Assembly: GCA_022827405.1 (NCBI GenBank)
Contig: JAJDTA010000179.1
Coordinates: forward strand, 1-56,842
Reading direction: 5' to 3'
From: Acidimicrobiia bacterium
GTDB taxonomy: Bacteria > Actinomycetota > Acidimicrobiia > Acidimicrobiales > Bin134
Length of the DNA: 56,842 nucleotides
Part shown: piece after piece, positions 32,137 to 36,867 of the stretch
Position numbering within the stretch: position 1 is the first letter of the stretch
Layout: every line of letters begins with the position of its first letter
Position numbers and translations under genes: made by a program
The notes under the pieces: model-generated
Told to the model about the DNA's origin: nothing
What the model saw: the letters and a program-made list of their open reading frames with translations, nothing else
The model's database searches: none

Positions 32137-32640
32137 CTAAGCCACCGACCCGTCGGGGGTGGGGGTGGGCACTTCGGTCACCGGGATGACCGGCGGCGGG
32201 CCCCAGGCGATGGCCGCTTTGGAGAAGCCTGCGGCCATGGCCACCGTGAGGGCTAGCTCGGCCAACTCGGCGGGGGAGAACTCCTCGTTAAGCGCCGCTC
32301 GATCGGCTGCGCTGAGTCCTAACGGGTCGGAGATCACCGCGTCGGCCATTCGCAAGGCCAGCTTGAGCCGATCCGGCAAGTCGCTGTCGTCATAGCCGTC
32401 ATCGATCTGGTCCACCAGTTCCTCGGTGAGTCCCTGCTGCTTCGCACCTGCGAAGCGGAGGTTCTTTCAAATGTTGCAGTCGTTGACCCGGGCGTTGCGG
32501 AGCCGGCCCACCTCCTTGGTGGCCTGGTCGAGTTGCCCTTCGCTCCACAGCGTGCCGTAGAAGCGGTTGAACACCGCAAACAGCTCGGGCTGGTGGTCGA
32601 ACAGCGACATTCCCCCTTCGGGGATGACGATTCTGGTCAT
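32137..32640 (-). CDS. Probable selenoprotein: AhpD/carboxymuconolactone-decarboxylase family, CxxU
   Basis: One continuous frame of 168 codons from ATG 32640 to the stop at 32137, broken only by TGA at 32469-32467 (codon 58). Upstream it reads RLRNARVNDCNI, downstream KNLRFAGAKQQGL, so TGA replaces the second Cys of the AhpD-type CxxC redox motif (C55-N-I-U58). A strong SECIS-like hairpin follows. With Sec read through, 167 residues give a normal-length alpha-helical CMD domain whose second half (FSPAELAELALTVAMAAGFS) is intact. Known AhpD proteins are thiol-dependent peroxidase or disulfide-reduction partners; the substrate here is unknown. ATG overlaps the upstream gene's stop (ATGA). Alternatives: nonsense mutation or sequencing error. 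Confidence 0.78.
32439..32469 (-). promoter_or_regulatory. SECIS-like element with its UGA codon
   Basis: On the minus strand TGA (32469-32467) is followed by ten bases and then GCTTCGC-AGGT-GCGAAGC, a perfect 7-bp stem with a 4-nt loop (stem 32456-32450 and 32445-32439). Seventeen bases separate UGA from the loop, as in E. coli fdhF, whose apical loop also begins AGGU. CCT/AGG can add a lower stem. SelB would bind here to direct Sec insertion. Confidence 0.72.
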
Positions 32641-33011
32641 TCGATGACTCCTCTCAGTGCAACCCGGCTGCGAGCCAGGGCCTCAAACGTGGCAATAGCG
32701 GTGGTGAGCGCGGCCAACTCCGGGGGCGACAGATGGGAATTCAACTCGGCACACAACTCATCGGTCACCCCATGGGCATCCAGCACATACTGCTCGGTGA
32801 ACGCCAGCACGACCCTTCCTCGATCGTCTTGGGGGGAAGCAGCCAACGCCCCACCACCGATCATCTGGTCAATGCGGGCCGCGCAAAGCTCCAACAACCC
32901 GGGGTCCAGCCCTACCCCTTCGAGGGCCTGCACCAACTCTTCCAGCAGCCCGGCCACATGGGGGTCCAACGCCGCCAGCGGACTGCCGGTTGAGGTAGAG
33001 CTCATTTCCAT
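32637..33011 (-). CDS. CMD/AhpD-like paralogue lacking the CxxC motif
   Basis: A 124-residue all-helical protein that aligns with the downstream selenoprotein: VGLDPGLLELCAARIDQMIGG matches its RLRNARVNDCNIU region (shown as LLELCAARIDQMIGG), and HLSPPELAALTTAIATFEA matches FSPAELAELALTVAMAAGF. The redox pair is missing (GGGA in place of CxxC), so it cannot do the same chemistry alone; a structural subunit of a mixed oligomer is a reasonable guess. ATG 33011 overlaps the upstream MBL stop (TGATG), and its own stop overlaps the selenoprotein start, so all three are tightly coupled. Confidence 0.72.
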   Translation of the reverse strand: MEMSSTSTGSPLAALDPHVAGLLEELVQALEGVGLDPGLLELCAARIDQMIGGGALAASPQDDRGRVVLAFTEQYVLDAHGVTDELCAELNSHLSPPELAALTTAIATFEALARSRVALRGVIE

Positions 33012-33712
33012 CACCCGCCGAACATGGCCAGCCACTGCTCAGCCGAGCGGGGCATGAACACGTAGTTGGTCTGGCGGGTCTCGCCCATCGAAGCCGACGG
33101 CTGGGGTGAGTACAGGTGGCCGGGGTACAGCGTGGCGGTGTCGGGAACCCGGGCCAGGCGCTGGGTGAGGCTCTCGTACATGGCCGCCGGGTCGCTCCCC
33201 GGCAGGTCGGTCCTCCCGCACCCTTCCAGGAACAGCGTGTCGCCGGCCACCAATCGCCCGTTGGTCAAAAAGCACTGGCTCCCCGGCGTGTGGCCCGGGG
33301 TGTGGATCATCTCGATGTCCACCGCCCCCACCGACAGCACATCGCCGCTCTTGTGCAAGCACAGATCATCTTCTTCCAGCCCGGTGGTCATGCTGACATA
33401 GCGAGCCTCATCAGCCTGCACATGCACTGGAACCGACACCAGCTCCAACAGCTCAGCCACACCTGTGATGGAGAACTGCATGATCGATCCCCCCACATGA
33501 TCGGCGTGGTAGTGCGTGGCCAACACCCCCGTGAGCCGCATCCCATCAGCTTCAACCAGATCCACAATCCCCTGCGGGTCATAAGCCGGGTCCACCACCA
33601 CCGCTTCCCCCGTCTCCCGATCCCCAATCAAGTAAACAAAATTCACCATCTGTCGAGCCATCATGTCCCCAACAGCCAAGTCCCGGCCCGACAACAACTG
33701 CCGAAAATACAT
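33011..33712 (-). CDS. Metallo-beta-lactamase-fold hydrolase, persulfide dioxygenase/glyoxalase II-like
   Basis: A 233-residue MBL-fold protein. Metal motifs: ATHYHADHVGG (HxHxDH), MIHTPGHTPGS, GDTLFLEGCGRTDLPG and LYPGHLYSP. The GCGRTD segment after the metal Asp is characteristic of the ETHE1-type persulfide dioxygenases and close glyoxalase II relatives; the usual HDY is HLY here. No rhodanese domain. Start: ATG 33712 (MYFRQLL); ATG 33739 is in frame but abuts a 12-bp hairpin. First gene of the operon with two CMD-family proteins, suggesting sulfur or thiol redox work. Confidence 0.83.
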   Translation of the reverse strand: MYFRQLLSGRDLAVGDMMARQMVNFVYLIGDRETGEAVVVDPAYDPQGIVDLVEADGMRLTGVLATHYHADHVGGSIMQFSITGVAELLELVSVPVHVQADEARYVSMTTGLEEDDLCLHKSGDVLSVGAVDIEMIHTPGHTPGSQCFLTNGRLVAGDTLFLEGCGRTDLPGSDPAAMYESLTQRLARVPDTATLYPGHLYSPQPSASMGETRQTNYVFMPRSAEQWLAMFGG

Positions 33713-33902: not shown

Positions 33903-35090
33903 TCAAGCCACAGGCTCGTCATCCCCCTGCCGCCGCCAGGCTTCTTCAGCCAACGAGACAACCTCACGAGCCGGCAACCCCAACAACTTCGAGGCTCGCA
34001 CCGCCTCGTCGTGCTCGACCTTCACCCGCCCCGCGCTCACCTTCACCCGAAGCCGCCGCCCATCAACATCCACCTCATGCTCCAACCGCGCTCGAGGCCA
34101 CCGTTCAATCAACTGCCCTCGCACCCCCAAAGACCCAGTCTCATCAGCCAACGTACCCGCCACCTGATCACCCACCGCAGGATCAGCCAAAGCACTAACC
34201 GTGTACGCCGGGCGCCCCTTCTTCATCACGATCGGCGTGATCCAGGCATCGTGCGCCCCTGCTTCCAGTAGCGATGCCACCGTGTGCGCCAGGGTCTCCC
34301 CCGTAGCGTCATCCACGTTGGTCTCAAACAGCATCACCGGCTGACCTTCAGGCCGAGCCGCCGCCATCGTTCCCACCACCACCTGGGTGAGGTTGGGACG
34401 ATCCTCCAGTTGGTTGTCGCCCGAACCAAACCCGCTCGCCGAGATCGTCATCGGCGGCATTGGCCCCCAGCCTTCCGCCAACGCCGACAAGATCGCCGCG
34501 CCGGTAGGAGTCGTCAGCTCCATTCCCACGTCTAACCCGAACGTCGGGCACCCCACCAGCAACTCCACCACCGCGGGAGGCGGATTGGGCAGATGCCCGT
34601 GGGCACTGCGGATCATTCCCCGCCCGCATGCCACCGCACTGGAGTAAACCTGGTCGATCCCCAGTACCTCCAGCGCCGCACAAGTGCCCACCACGTCGAT
34701 GATGGCGTCCAGCCCGCCCACCTCGTGGAAGTGGACCTGCTCTGGCGGTCGGCGGTGCAGCTTGCCCTCGGCCCGGGCCAGGGCATCGAAAACTGCCAGC
34801 GCCCGGTCGGCCACCCGGTCGGGCAGCCGAGCCTCCCCGACGAGGGCAATGATGTGGCTGGCGGTGCGCACCACCGAAGTCTCCTGGGTTATCACCCGCA
34901 CATCGGTGGCCCCGATGCCTCCTCGCTGGGTGGGGTGGGCTTGAAGGTCCCACCCGCCCAAGGGCAGCAGTTCGCACATCTCCCGCACTTCGGCCACATC
35001 GGCCCCGGCGTCGATCAGCGCCCCCAGCGCCATGTCGCCCGCGATCCCGCTGAAACAGTGGAACCAGGCAACCCCAGTCGGCTCAGCCAT
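33903..35090 (-). CDS. larC: LarC-like nickel insertion protein
   Basis: A 395-residue protein of the DUF111 family that inserts nickel into the nickel-pincer nucleotide cofactor. Recognised by WFHCFSGIAGDMALGALIDAG (core CFSGIAGDM), QVHFHEVGGLDAIIDVVG, LTTPTGAAILSAL, METNVDD-like LFETNVDDATGE and MKKGRPAYTV. In some bacteria larC is split by a frameshift; here it is one frame. Start: ATG 35090 (GTG 35102 possible). It follows larB, with a 20-bp tandem repeat at the junction. No larA or larE is visible. Confidence 0.9.
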   Translation of the reverse strand: MAEPTGVAWFHCFSGIAGDMALGALIDAGADVAEVREMCELLPLGGWDLQAHPTQRGGIGATDVRVITQETSVVRTASHIIALVGEARLPDRVADRALAVFDALARAEGKLHRRPPEQVHFHEVGGLDAIIDVVGTCAALEVLGIDQVYSSAVACGRGMIRSAHGHLPNPPPAVVELLVGCPTFGLDVGMELTTPTGAAILSALAEGWGPMPPMTISASGFGSGDNQLEDRPNLTQVVVGTMAAARPEGQPVMLFETNVDDATGETLAHTVASLLEAGAHDAWITPIVMKKGRPAYTVSALADPAVGDQVAGTLADETGSLGVRGQLIERWPRARLEHEVDVDGRRLRVKVSAGRVKVEHDEAVRASKLLGLPAREVVSLAEEAWRRQGDDEPVA

Positions 35091-35134
35091 CGTTCGCTCC
35101 ACCCAGCCATCGTTTGCTCCACTCAGCCATCGTT
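35084..35134. repeat. 20-bp tandem repeat (2.5 copies) across the larB-larC junction
   Basis: CAGCCATCGTTCGCTCCACC (35084-35103) and CAGCCATCGTTTGCTCCACT (35104-35123) are followed by a third partial copy to 35134. On the minus strand each copy carries ATGGCTG(A/G): the first such copy supplies the larB stop, the last the larC start. Confidence 0.8.
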
Positions 35135-35899
35135 AAACCCTGTCGGCGACACTGCTCGCTCCCTCGTCTTGAACAAACGCAGCACCGCGCAGGCCGCGCC
35201 AAAGCCGTTGTCCACTCCTACCACGGTCACCCCCGAGGCACACGACGACAACATCGCCAACAGCGGGGTGACCCCCTCAAGCGACGATCCGTACCCCGCG
35301 CTGGTGGGCACCGCCACTACCGGGGCCGCGGTCAGCCCGCCGACCACCGAGGCCAACGCCCCTTCCATGCCCGCCACCACCACCACGGCATCAGCCGAGG
35401 CCAACACGTCGACCTCGCCGAGAATCCGATGAAGCCCGGCCACCCCCACATCGTTCAGCCGCTGAGGGGCCAGCCCGTGAGCGGCCAGCACCACGCCGCA
35501 TTCGTCGGCCACCGGGAGATCGGCGGTGCCCGCTGCGGCCAACACCACCCGTTCGGGCCGCGGCGCCGCCGGACGCCACACCAAGGTGGCGTCGTAGCGC
35601 TCCCCTCCGGGGTTGAGCCTCAGCGAAGTGGCCGCCTGCTCATCAGAGGCTCTGGTCAACAGCACCGGGCCACCCGGCTGATCCAACAATTCCCCCACGA
35701 TGGCCGCGCACTGGTCGGGGGTTTTGCCCGGGCCGTACACCACCTCGGCCAGCCCCTGGCGGAGGCTGCGATGATGATCCACCCGGGCAAATCCCAAGTC
35801 AGCGAACGGCAAGCGGCGCAATTGCCGCACGGCATCGTCCGCGGTCACCGTGCCGTCGCGCACGTTTGCCATCAATTGCCGAACAAAGGCCTCATCCAC
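35123..35899 (-). CDS. larB: LarB-like nicotinate adenine dinucleotide carboxylase
   Basis: A 258-residue protein with the AIR-carboxylase-like (PurE) C-terminal domain that starts nickel-pincer cofactor synthesis. Visible: GFARVDHHRSLRQGLAEVVYG (core RVDHHRSLRQG), VLLTRASDEQ, AAGTADLPVADEC, ADAVVVVAGMEGALASVVGG (core VAGMEGALASVVGG) and VPTSAGYG. GTG 35899 has AGG nine bases upstream; GTG 35905 is possible. It diverges from pheA across about 20 bp. larC lies 32 bases downstream. Confidence 0.9.
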   Translation of the reverse strand: MDEAFVRQLMANVRDGTVTADDAVRQLRRLPFADLGFARVDHHRSLRQGLAEVVYGPGKTPDQCAAIVGELLDQPGGPVLLTRASDEQAATSLRLNPGGERYDATLVWRPAAPRPERVVLAAAGTADLPVADECGVVLAAHGLAPQRLNDVGVAGLHRILGEVDVLASADAVVVVAGMEGALASVVGGLTAAPVVAVPTSAGYGSSLEGVTPLLAMLSSCASGVTVVGVDNGFGAACAVLRLFKTRERAVSPTGFNDG

Positions 35900-35905
35900 T
35901 CCCAC

Positions 35906-35911
35906 TATCCT
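35906..35911 (+). promoter_or_regulatory. Candidate -10 box of leaderless pheA mRNA
   Basis: TATCCT ends eight bases before GTG 35920. It overlaps the region just upstream of the divergent larB start. Confidence 0.35.
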
Positions 35912-35919
35912 GCCCTTTT

Positions 35920-36867
35920 GTGACTGCGTCTGCCCGATCCGTGAGCCATGTGGCCTACCTGGGACCACCGGGCACGTTCACCGAAGAAGCCCTTCTTACC
36001 CAACCCGACTTGGCTGCCGCCAAGCACAAGCTGTGCCGGTCGATCCCCGAGGTGCTCGAGAGTGCCGCCGAGGGCCAGGTCGATTTGGGGTTCACCGCCA
36101 TCGAGAACTCCATCGAGGGCACCGTGAACGTCGCCCTCGATGCGCTGATCTTCGAGCACGATCTGCTCATCCAGCGAGAGGTGGTCATCGACGTCCGGCT
36201 CCACCTCCTCGGCCTTGTTGGCGCGTCGCTGGAGACAATCCAACGAGTCATCAGCTTCCCCGTGGCCACCGCCCAGTGCCGGCGCTACCTCACCGACAAC
36301 CTGCCCCATGCCGAAGAGGTGGCGGCCAACTCCACCGCGGCTGCGGCCCGGGATCTCTCCATCTCCAAAGACGCCGCATCTGCGGCCGTCGGCACCATCC
36401 TGTCGCAGCACATCTACGGTCTAGAGCTGCTGGCCACCGACATCGAAGACCACCCCGAGAACCAAACCCGTTTCGTGGCGGTATCCAGTTCGGGCGTCCC
36501 TGCCCCCACCGGCCACGACAAGACCTCCATCGTGGTTTTCCAGCGCGCCGACCGGTCGGGCTCGCTGATGGGCATTCTCGCCGAATTCGCCGCCCGGTCC
36601 ATCAACCTCACCAAGCTGGAGTCGCGGCCCACCAAGAAGGCACTGGGCGACTACTGCTTCCTCATCGACCTTGAGGGCCATGTCGCCGATCAACTGGTGG
36701 CCGACTGCCTCACCAGCATCGTGGCCAAGCACGGCGAGGTGAAGTTCCTCGGCTCCTACCCCACCAACATCAGGGGAAACGAAGAGCAATCCAACGCGGC
36801 CACCACTGCCTGGTCGGAGGCCCAGAGTTGGATCGACGACCTCCGTGGGCAAGTCGACCCGACTTGA
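35920..36867 (+). CDS. pheA: Prephenate dehydratase
   Basis: Converts prephenate to phenylpyruvate in phenylalanine synthesis. 315 residues: periplasmic-binding-like catalytic domain (VAYLGPPGTFTEEAL, GFTAIENSIEGTV, and the catalytic TRF in ENQTRFVAV) followed by an ACT domain (HDKTSIVVF, GILAEFAARSINLTKLESRP core INLTKLESRP) that binds phenylalanine as inhibitor. No chorismate mutase domain. Start GTG 35920 fits a leaderless mRNA; GTG 35941 is the alternative. Confidence 0.94.
   Translation: MTASARSVSHVAYLGPPGTFTEEALLTQPDLAAAKHKLCRSIPEVLESAAEGQVDLGFTAIENSIEGTVNVALDALIFEHDLLIQREVVIDVRLHLLGLVGASLETIQRVISFPVATAQCRRYLTDNLPHAEEVAANSTAAAARDLSISKDAASAAVGTILSQHIYGLELLATDIEDHPENQTRFVAVSSSGVPAPTGHDKTSIVVFQRADRSGSLMGILAEFAARSINLTKLESRPTKKALGDYCFLIDLEGHVADQLVADCLTSIVAKHGEVKFLGSYPTNIRGNEEQSNAATTAWSEAQSWIDDLRGQVDPT

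Follow-up and report, generated by a model that had tools for sequence, protein, structure and literature searches.

The window (the whole 56,842-nt stretch of the Acidimicrobiia contig analyzed here) comes from a bin of 3.77 Mb in 237 contigs, 95.7% complete and 5.3% contaminated. On its minus strand we found a gene that we term selCMD (32137..32640), for which the open frame, a Pfam CMD match, dN/dS and a predicted structure indicate a 167-residue protein of the AhpD/CMD fold with selenocysteine (Sec) at residue 58. As described in the first-pass annotation, a single frame runs from the ATG at 32640 down to its stop at 32137, broken solely by a TGA at codon 58 (32467..32469, minus), which takes the place of the second Cys of a CxxC motif (here CxxU) in a recognized CMD/AhpD context. 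The motif reads C55-N-I-TGA58 (TGA at 32469-32467 on the minus strand), with its first Cys encoded by TGC (32476..32478, minus) and invariant across 30 aligned homologs. When the TGA is read as a residue, the Pfam CMD domain (PF02627) runs across it, covering residues 18-76 with E = 3e-11 and 43.5 bits, above the gathering score of 23. Direct reading of the sequence places a Shine-Dalgarno-like GAGAGGAG 7 nt 5′ of the ATG (32648..32655, minus), and this ATG overlaps (as ATGA) the TGA stop of the upstream gene, CMD1 (32637..33035, minus), which codes for a CMD-like partner without the Cys/Sec pair and weakly matches the C-terminal half of the YciW-related (seleno)protein model NF053654. Also on the minus strand are an MBL-fold hydrolase of the hydroxyacylglutathione hydrolase/persulfide dioxygenase-like type (33011..33712; PF00753, E = 4e-20; TIGR03413, E = 2e-28, below cut-off) and, just upstream of the MBL-CMD1-selCMD run, LarB- and LarC-like genes of nickel-pincer cofactor synthesis, named by eye from sequence (33903-35968). 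The neighbors of selCMD are housekeeping genes and a tRNA, and no AhpC-like gene was seen beside it.

Ten nucleotides past the TGA begins the stem of a hairpin of the bacterial SECIS type, GCUUCGC-AGGU-GCGAAGC (32439..32456, minus), recognized from folding, conservation and covariation. Its perfect 7-bp stem, the AGGU loop (32449-32446) and the 17 nt between TGA and loop (i.e., the first loop base is the 18th nucleotide past the TGA) all measure as had been claimed; in E. coli fdhF the UGA-to-loop distance is likewise 17 nt and the loop AGGU. In folding energy it departs only mildly from shuffled sequence (z = -1.75; 13 of 200 shuffles do equally well), so the hairpin by itself is unconvincing and the argument is carried by comparative tests, namely its conservation, its covariation, the freezing of synonymous sites and its absence from the Cys homologs. 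Each of the 26 distinct Sec-form sites carries the stem at an identical position, with on average 6.8 of the 7 pairs formed, versus 3.2 of 7 in the five Cys forms. Across 19 distinct Sec rows, two stem pairs have changed in both partner bases (CG to UA and GC to AU), and 98.5% of the cells are paired, against at most 52% in slid controls; the loop is variable (e.g., AGGU, GGUC, AGUU) with a G always present. At the codon level, 14 close homologs agree exactly at 7 of the 10 hairpin codons, as opposed to 16 of the 101 other codons with an invariant amino acid (Fisher p = 0.0006), and the hairpin draws on the rare GCA and GGT, which account for 6.5% of Ala and 10.6% of Gly codons elsewhere in the gene. 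In the close homologs, dS is 0.10 at the hairpin codons versus 0.55-0.81 outside, while dN/dS is 0.064 before the UGA and 0.078 after it, pointing to purifying selection on both sides. We read the frozen synonymous sites in the hairpin as the signature of an RNA element laid over a protein under purifying selection, a combination that excludes a pseudogene in decay and leaves a sequencing error untenable.

Scanning genome contigs for homologs recovered 21 loci, 20 of which include codon 58, with TGA in 19 and TGC in one (Frankia nepalensis). To these, a class-wide search of 395 Acidimicrobiia genomes added TGA forms from several families as well as four Cys forms. TGA stands at codon 58 in each of the 26 distinct Sec-form sites and in every complete close homolog from Acidimicrobiia; TGC or TGT is limited to the five Cys-form loci (L037, L080, L082, L084 and L086), i.e., Frankia and four class members. 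Both expectations of the first-pass annotation, Cys or Sec at codon 58 of the homologs and strong conservation of the protein past the TGA, are thus borne out by the alignment. A tree of 30 rows implies that Sec and Cys were exchanged at least two times. The 21st locus, on the complete chromosome OX638350.1 of the same genus (L043:4900-5240; genome G341), lacks codon 58 through a single deletion that took most of CMD1 along with the N-terminal half of selCMD; the C-terminal half is left, and SelA and tRNA-Sec are still present in this genome. From this deletion we conclude that selCMD is dispensable in some strains. In a search of plasmids, the relatives of selCMD found were all distant CMD proteins (29-36% identity).

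These distributions bear on rival explanations of the TGA. It could be a sequencing or assembly error for a true TGC or TGT, given that the window is a single MAG contig and that its relatives include Cys forms, but the TGA and the hairpin recur in independent assemblies, including one complete chromosome (OX638344.1, L024) and MAGs obtained in separate studies, which leaves such an error with a negligible probability. It could also be an ordinary stop, leaving a pseudogene or two fragments (57 aa, then 92 aa starting at a GTG at 32415), since UGA normally terminates genes in this genome, as at the end of CMD1 next door, and the deletion in OX638350.1 removes the N-terminal half and most of CMD1. 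Against this stand the dN/dS of 0.06-0.08 on both sides of the TGA, the occurrence of the same TGA throughout the class and a frame with no other lesion, so that we regard an ordinary stop as very improbable and, in practice, refuted.

Genes for SelA, SelB and a Sec-type SelD are present in the genome. Those for SelA and SelB are adjacent at two places in the bin (contigs C226 and C163) as diverged copies, from which we take the bin to be mixed, probably with two related strains or species binned together. The single-copy selD (contig C40:5922-6866, minus) is itself interrupted in frame by a TGA, at the active site GAGUAGK (SHGAGUAGKLG), which makes SelD a selenoprotein as well. As for selC, an Rfam tRNA-Sec search of this fragmented bin returned only Leu/Ser-type and other tRNAs, a selC-like pattern and the selC of a relative used as a DNA query gave no match in it, and neither ARAGORN nor Rfam detected a tRNA on the selAB and selD contigs. 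Hence, of the machinery that the first-pass annotation proposed to look for, selA, selB and selD are present in the genome itself, while selC is seen in relatives, with a tRNA-Sec(UCA) called by ARAGORN in 9 of the 11 tested. In the five relatives with both genes on one contig, selC precedes selA by about 15-23 kb; on C226, the longer selA contig of our bin, the sequence upstream of selA is only about 14 kb long and ends short of the expected position. The missing selC is therefore expected from fragmentation, which explains its absence without proving its presence. SelA was found in 17 of 19 relatives tested, the two lacking it being the Cys-form Frankia, which has no tRNA-Sec either, and one MAG that does have tRNA-Sec. 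It is present in 17/17 sampled close TGA-form genomes versus 267/395 overall (Fisher p = 0.001, a statistic that ignores relatedness). The latter count amounts to about two thirds of the sampled Acidimicrobiia and includes one genus with very small (about 1 Mb) genomes.

The selC result could favor recoding of the UGA as an amino acid other than Sec (by Trp, Cys or Arg suppression). However, SelA, SelB and SelD are present, the SECIS-type hairpin is limited to the UGA forms, the homologous residue is Cys and the adjacent gene uses UGA as a stop, all of which make such suppression highly unlikely; the TGA stop of CMD1 further implies that UGA is not globally reassigned in this genome. Insertion of Sec is thus favored by three independent tests, i.e., the conservation of the TGA and hairpin, the pattern of selection and the Sec machinery, and the mid-gene stop is almost certainly read as Sec to make one intact redox protein. 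With high confidence, we predict that selCMD encodes a genuine selenoprotein, in which SelB and tRNA-Sec would decode UGA58 as Sec under the direction of the hairpin 10 nt downstream, giving a single 167-residue AhpD-fold product with a C55-x-x-U58 pair. The original recognition of a hidden selenoprotein was right and is well supported, as was the warning that the gene is prone to misannotation.

An AlphaFold model of the product (from 30 sequences; pLDDT 89) shows an AhpD-like all-helical fold, with the best PDB matches being Agrobacterium Atu0492 (2gmy) and Pseudomonas aeruginosa PA0269 (2o4d; also 2ijc), at Z about 16 and rmsd 2.7-2.8 over about 140 residues. Further matches are the debrominase Bmp8 (Z 13.6) and Mycobacterium tuberculosis AhpD (1gu9, 1knc; Z 10.7). 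At the sequence level, the best NCBIfam likeness is to NF053654 and TIGR01926 (peroxidase-related enzyme), at E about 1e-6 over most of the protein length and 28-29 bits versus cut-offs of 310 and 81.8. Several other NCBIfam AhpD-type and '(seleno)protein' models match weakly, all below cut-off; for the curated selenoprotein families the scores are 28.3 bits of 310 (NF053654), 16.1 of 110 (NF041047) and 13.4 of 175 (NF041238). Four residues, Glu43, Cys55, Sec58 (Cys in five forms) and Arg62, are invariant in the 30 aligned sequences, and the Glu lies 12 residues before the CxxC/CxxU pair, the same spacing as in PA0269, with which a profile alignment superposes the Glu and the CxxC. The AhpD-like relay comprises Glu36, Cys48, Tyr50, Cys51 and His55, with both Cys and the His called invariant among AhpD-like structures (PMC3141380). 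In selCMD, the catalytic His (His137 in AhpD, His55 in PA0269), four residues past the second Cys, is not found, its place being taken by Arg62 in 30/30 sequences. PA0269 and Atu0492 accordingly share the fold and the Glu...CxxC spacing with selCMD and differ from it in having Cys for Sec and His55 for Arg62, at about 20% identity. M. tuberculosis AhpD has the same active-site helix hairpin and Glu118/Cys130/Cys133 spacing (PMC3141380) but another topology and His137 instead of the Arg. Of the initial 'AhpD/CMD family' assignment, the CMD part therefore stands (PF02627), whereas the AhpD part is too specific.

Because AhpD His137 corresponds to Arg62, peroxidase activity is not to be assumed; with Glu43, Cys55 and Sec58 kept, the best-supported mechanism is a selenol/thiol redox pair on the AhpD fold. 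We posit that C55-x-x-U58 would form a selenenylsulfide pair at the active site and that Sec58 and Cys55 might cycle between the selenol/thiol and selenenylsulfide states, reducing a peroxide, a disulfide or another electrophile. Hydroperoxide reduction would be a plausible activity. The protein could instead be a selenoprotein of another activity on the same fold (e.g., one that reduces disulfides, or a reductive dehalogenase of the Bmp8-like CxxC type), as hinted at by the invariant Arg, by the presence of Bmp8 among the fold matches and by the origin of several relatives from sponge-associated bins; yet the PA0269/Atu0492 AhpD-like group fits slightly better and nothing points to any specific substrate, and we consider this a possible but less probable assignment. 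The CxxC/UxxxR arrangement extends to distant CxxU and CxxC paralogs in Acidimicrobiia. Four such CMD paralogs (L100, L102, L103 and L104) display CxxU followed by xxxR, e.g., CHVULNTR, CNYUGNVR and CHTULSVR, which suggests several CxxU-xxx-R subfamilies. CxxU CMD genes of the class fall into at least two diverged groups.

Through analysis of gene neighborhoods, in which CMD1 partners were located by tblastn plus frame extension, we uncovered a CMD-like gene upstream of selCMD in 26 of 27 homolog loci, Sec and Cys forms alike, and directly adjacent in 25 of 27; the exceptions are L044, with CMD1 2.6 kb upstream, and L095, in which none was found. No Cys was seen in these partners at the position equivalent to Sec58, in a region where the alignment is loose. 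Gene order places selCMD second in a conserved cassette of two CMD genes. The SelCMD protein may work with the translationally coupled CMD1 protein in a hetero-oligomer, to which CMD1 would probably contribute a structural or substrate-binding subunit; we thereby infer a two-subunit enzyme with one redox-inactive subunit. A more specific proposal, which we put forward as speculative and rather unlikely, is that a subunit without the redox pair, CMD1, joins the CxxU-xxx-Arg catalytic subunit, SelCMD, in an obligate hetero-oligomeric selenoenzyme, which performs a reduction unlike that of the classical AhpD peroxidase, e.g., of a metabolite in marine-sponge symbionts that is halogenated or electrophilic in some other way. 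The MBL hydrolase, LarC and LarB were considered as parts of this functional unit and rejected: their synteny with selCMD is confined to the close group and is absent from the examined flanks of distant Sec homologs, which retain CMD1.

The first-pass statement that AhpD-like selenoproteins are known in other organisms agrees with the literature since 2005, when the Sargasso Sea study (PMC1088965) described CxxU selenoproteins of the AhpD-like kind. The GOS survey of 2008 lists AhpD-like 1 (COG2128) and AhpD-like 2 (pfam02627), both CxxU (PMC2398784), and a table in a 2026 review lists CMD-like PF02627 and AhpD-like TIGR01926 proteins, again CxxU (PMC13188914). Since such proteins are already published, selCMD belongs to a known selenoprotein type. 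As presented in those sources, the CxxU AhpD-like 2/CMD selenoproteins have in common with selCMD the CMD/AhpD domain, Sec as the second residue of CxxU and a SECIS just 3′ of the UGA. By the descriptions compared, which mention neither the CMD1 partner nor the CxxUxxxR motif, selCMD would stand apart from the published CxxU families, but it may be one of them. The selCMD branch itself, with its Arg active site and constant Cys-poor partner gene, seems undescribed.

Sec use seems to be widespread in Acidimicrobiia and little described; no paper devoted to it was found in the literature searched. In a sponge-microbiome study, most symbiont bins were reported to have SelA and SelB and most of their close references to lack them, in a passage that names no client protein (PMC5649159). 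The bin134 genome of that study carries selCMD (L030), which supplies one Sec client for it. Standard gene callers would split or shorten selCMD, and likewise in many other Acidimicrobiia. The Sec/Cys pairs, with the hairpin gained or lost, offer a clean natural experiment on Sec-Cys exchange, and the parts of selCMD worth following are its paired subunit and the His-to-Arg change.
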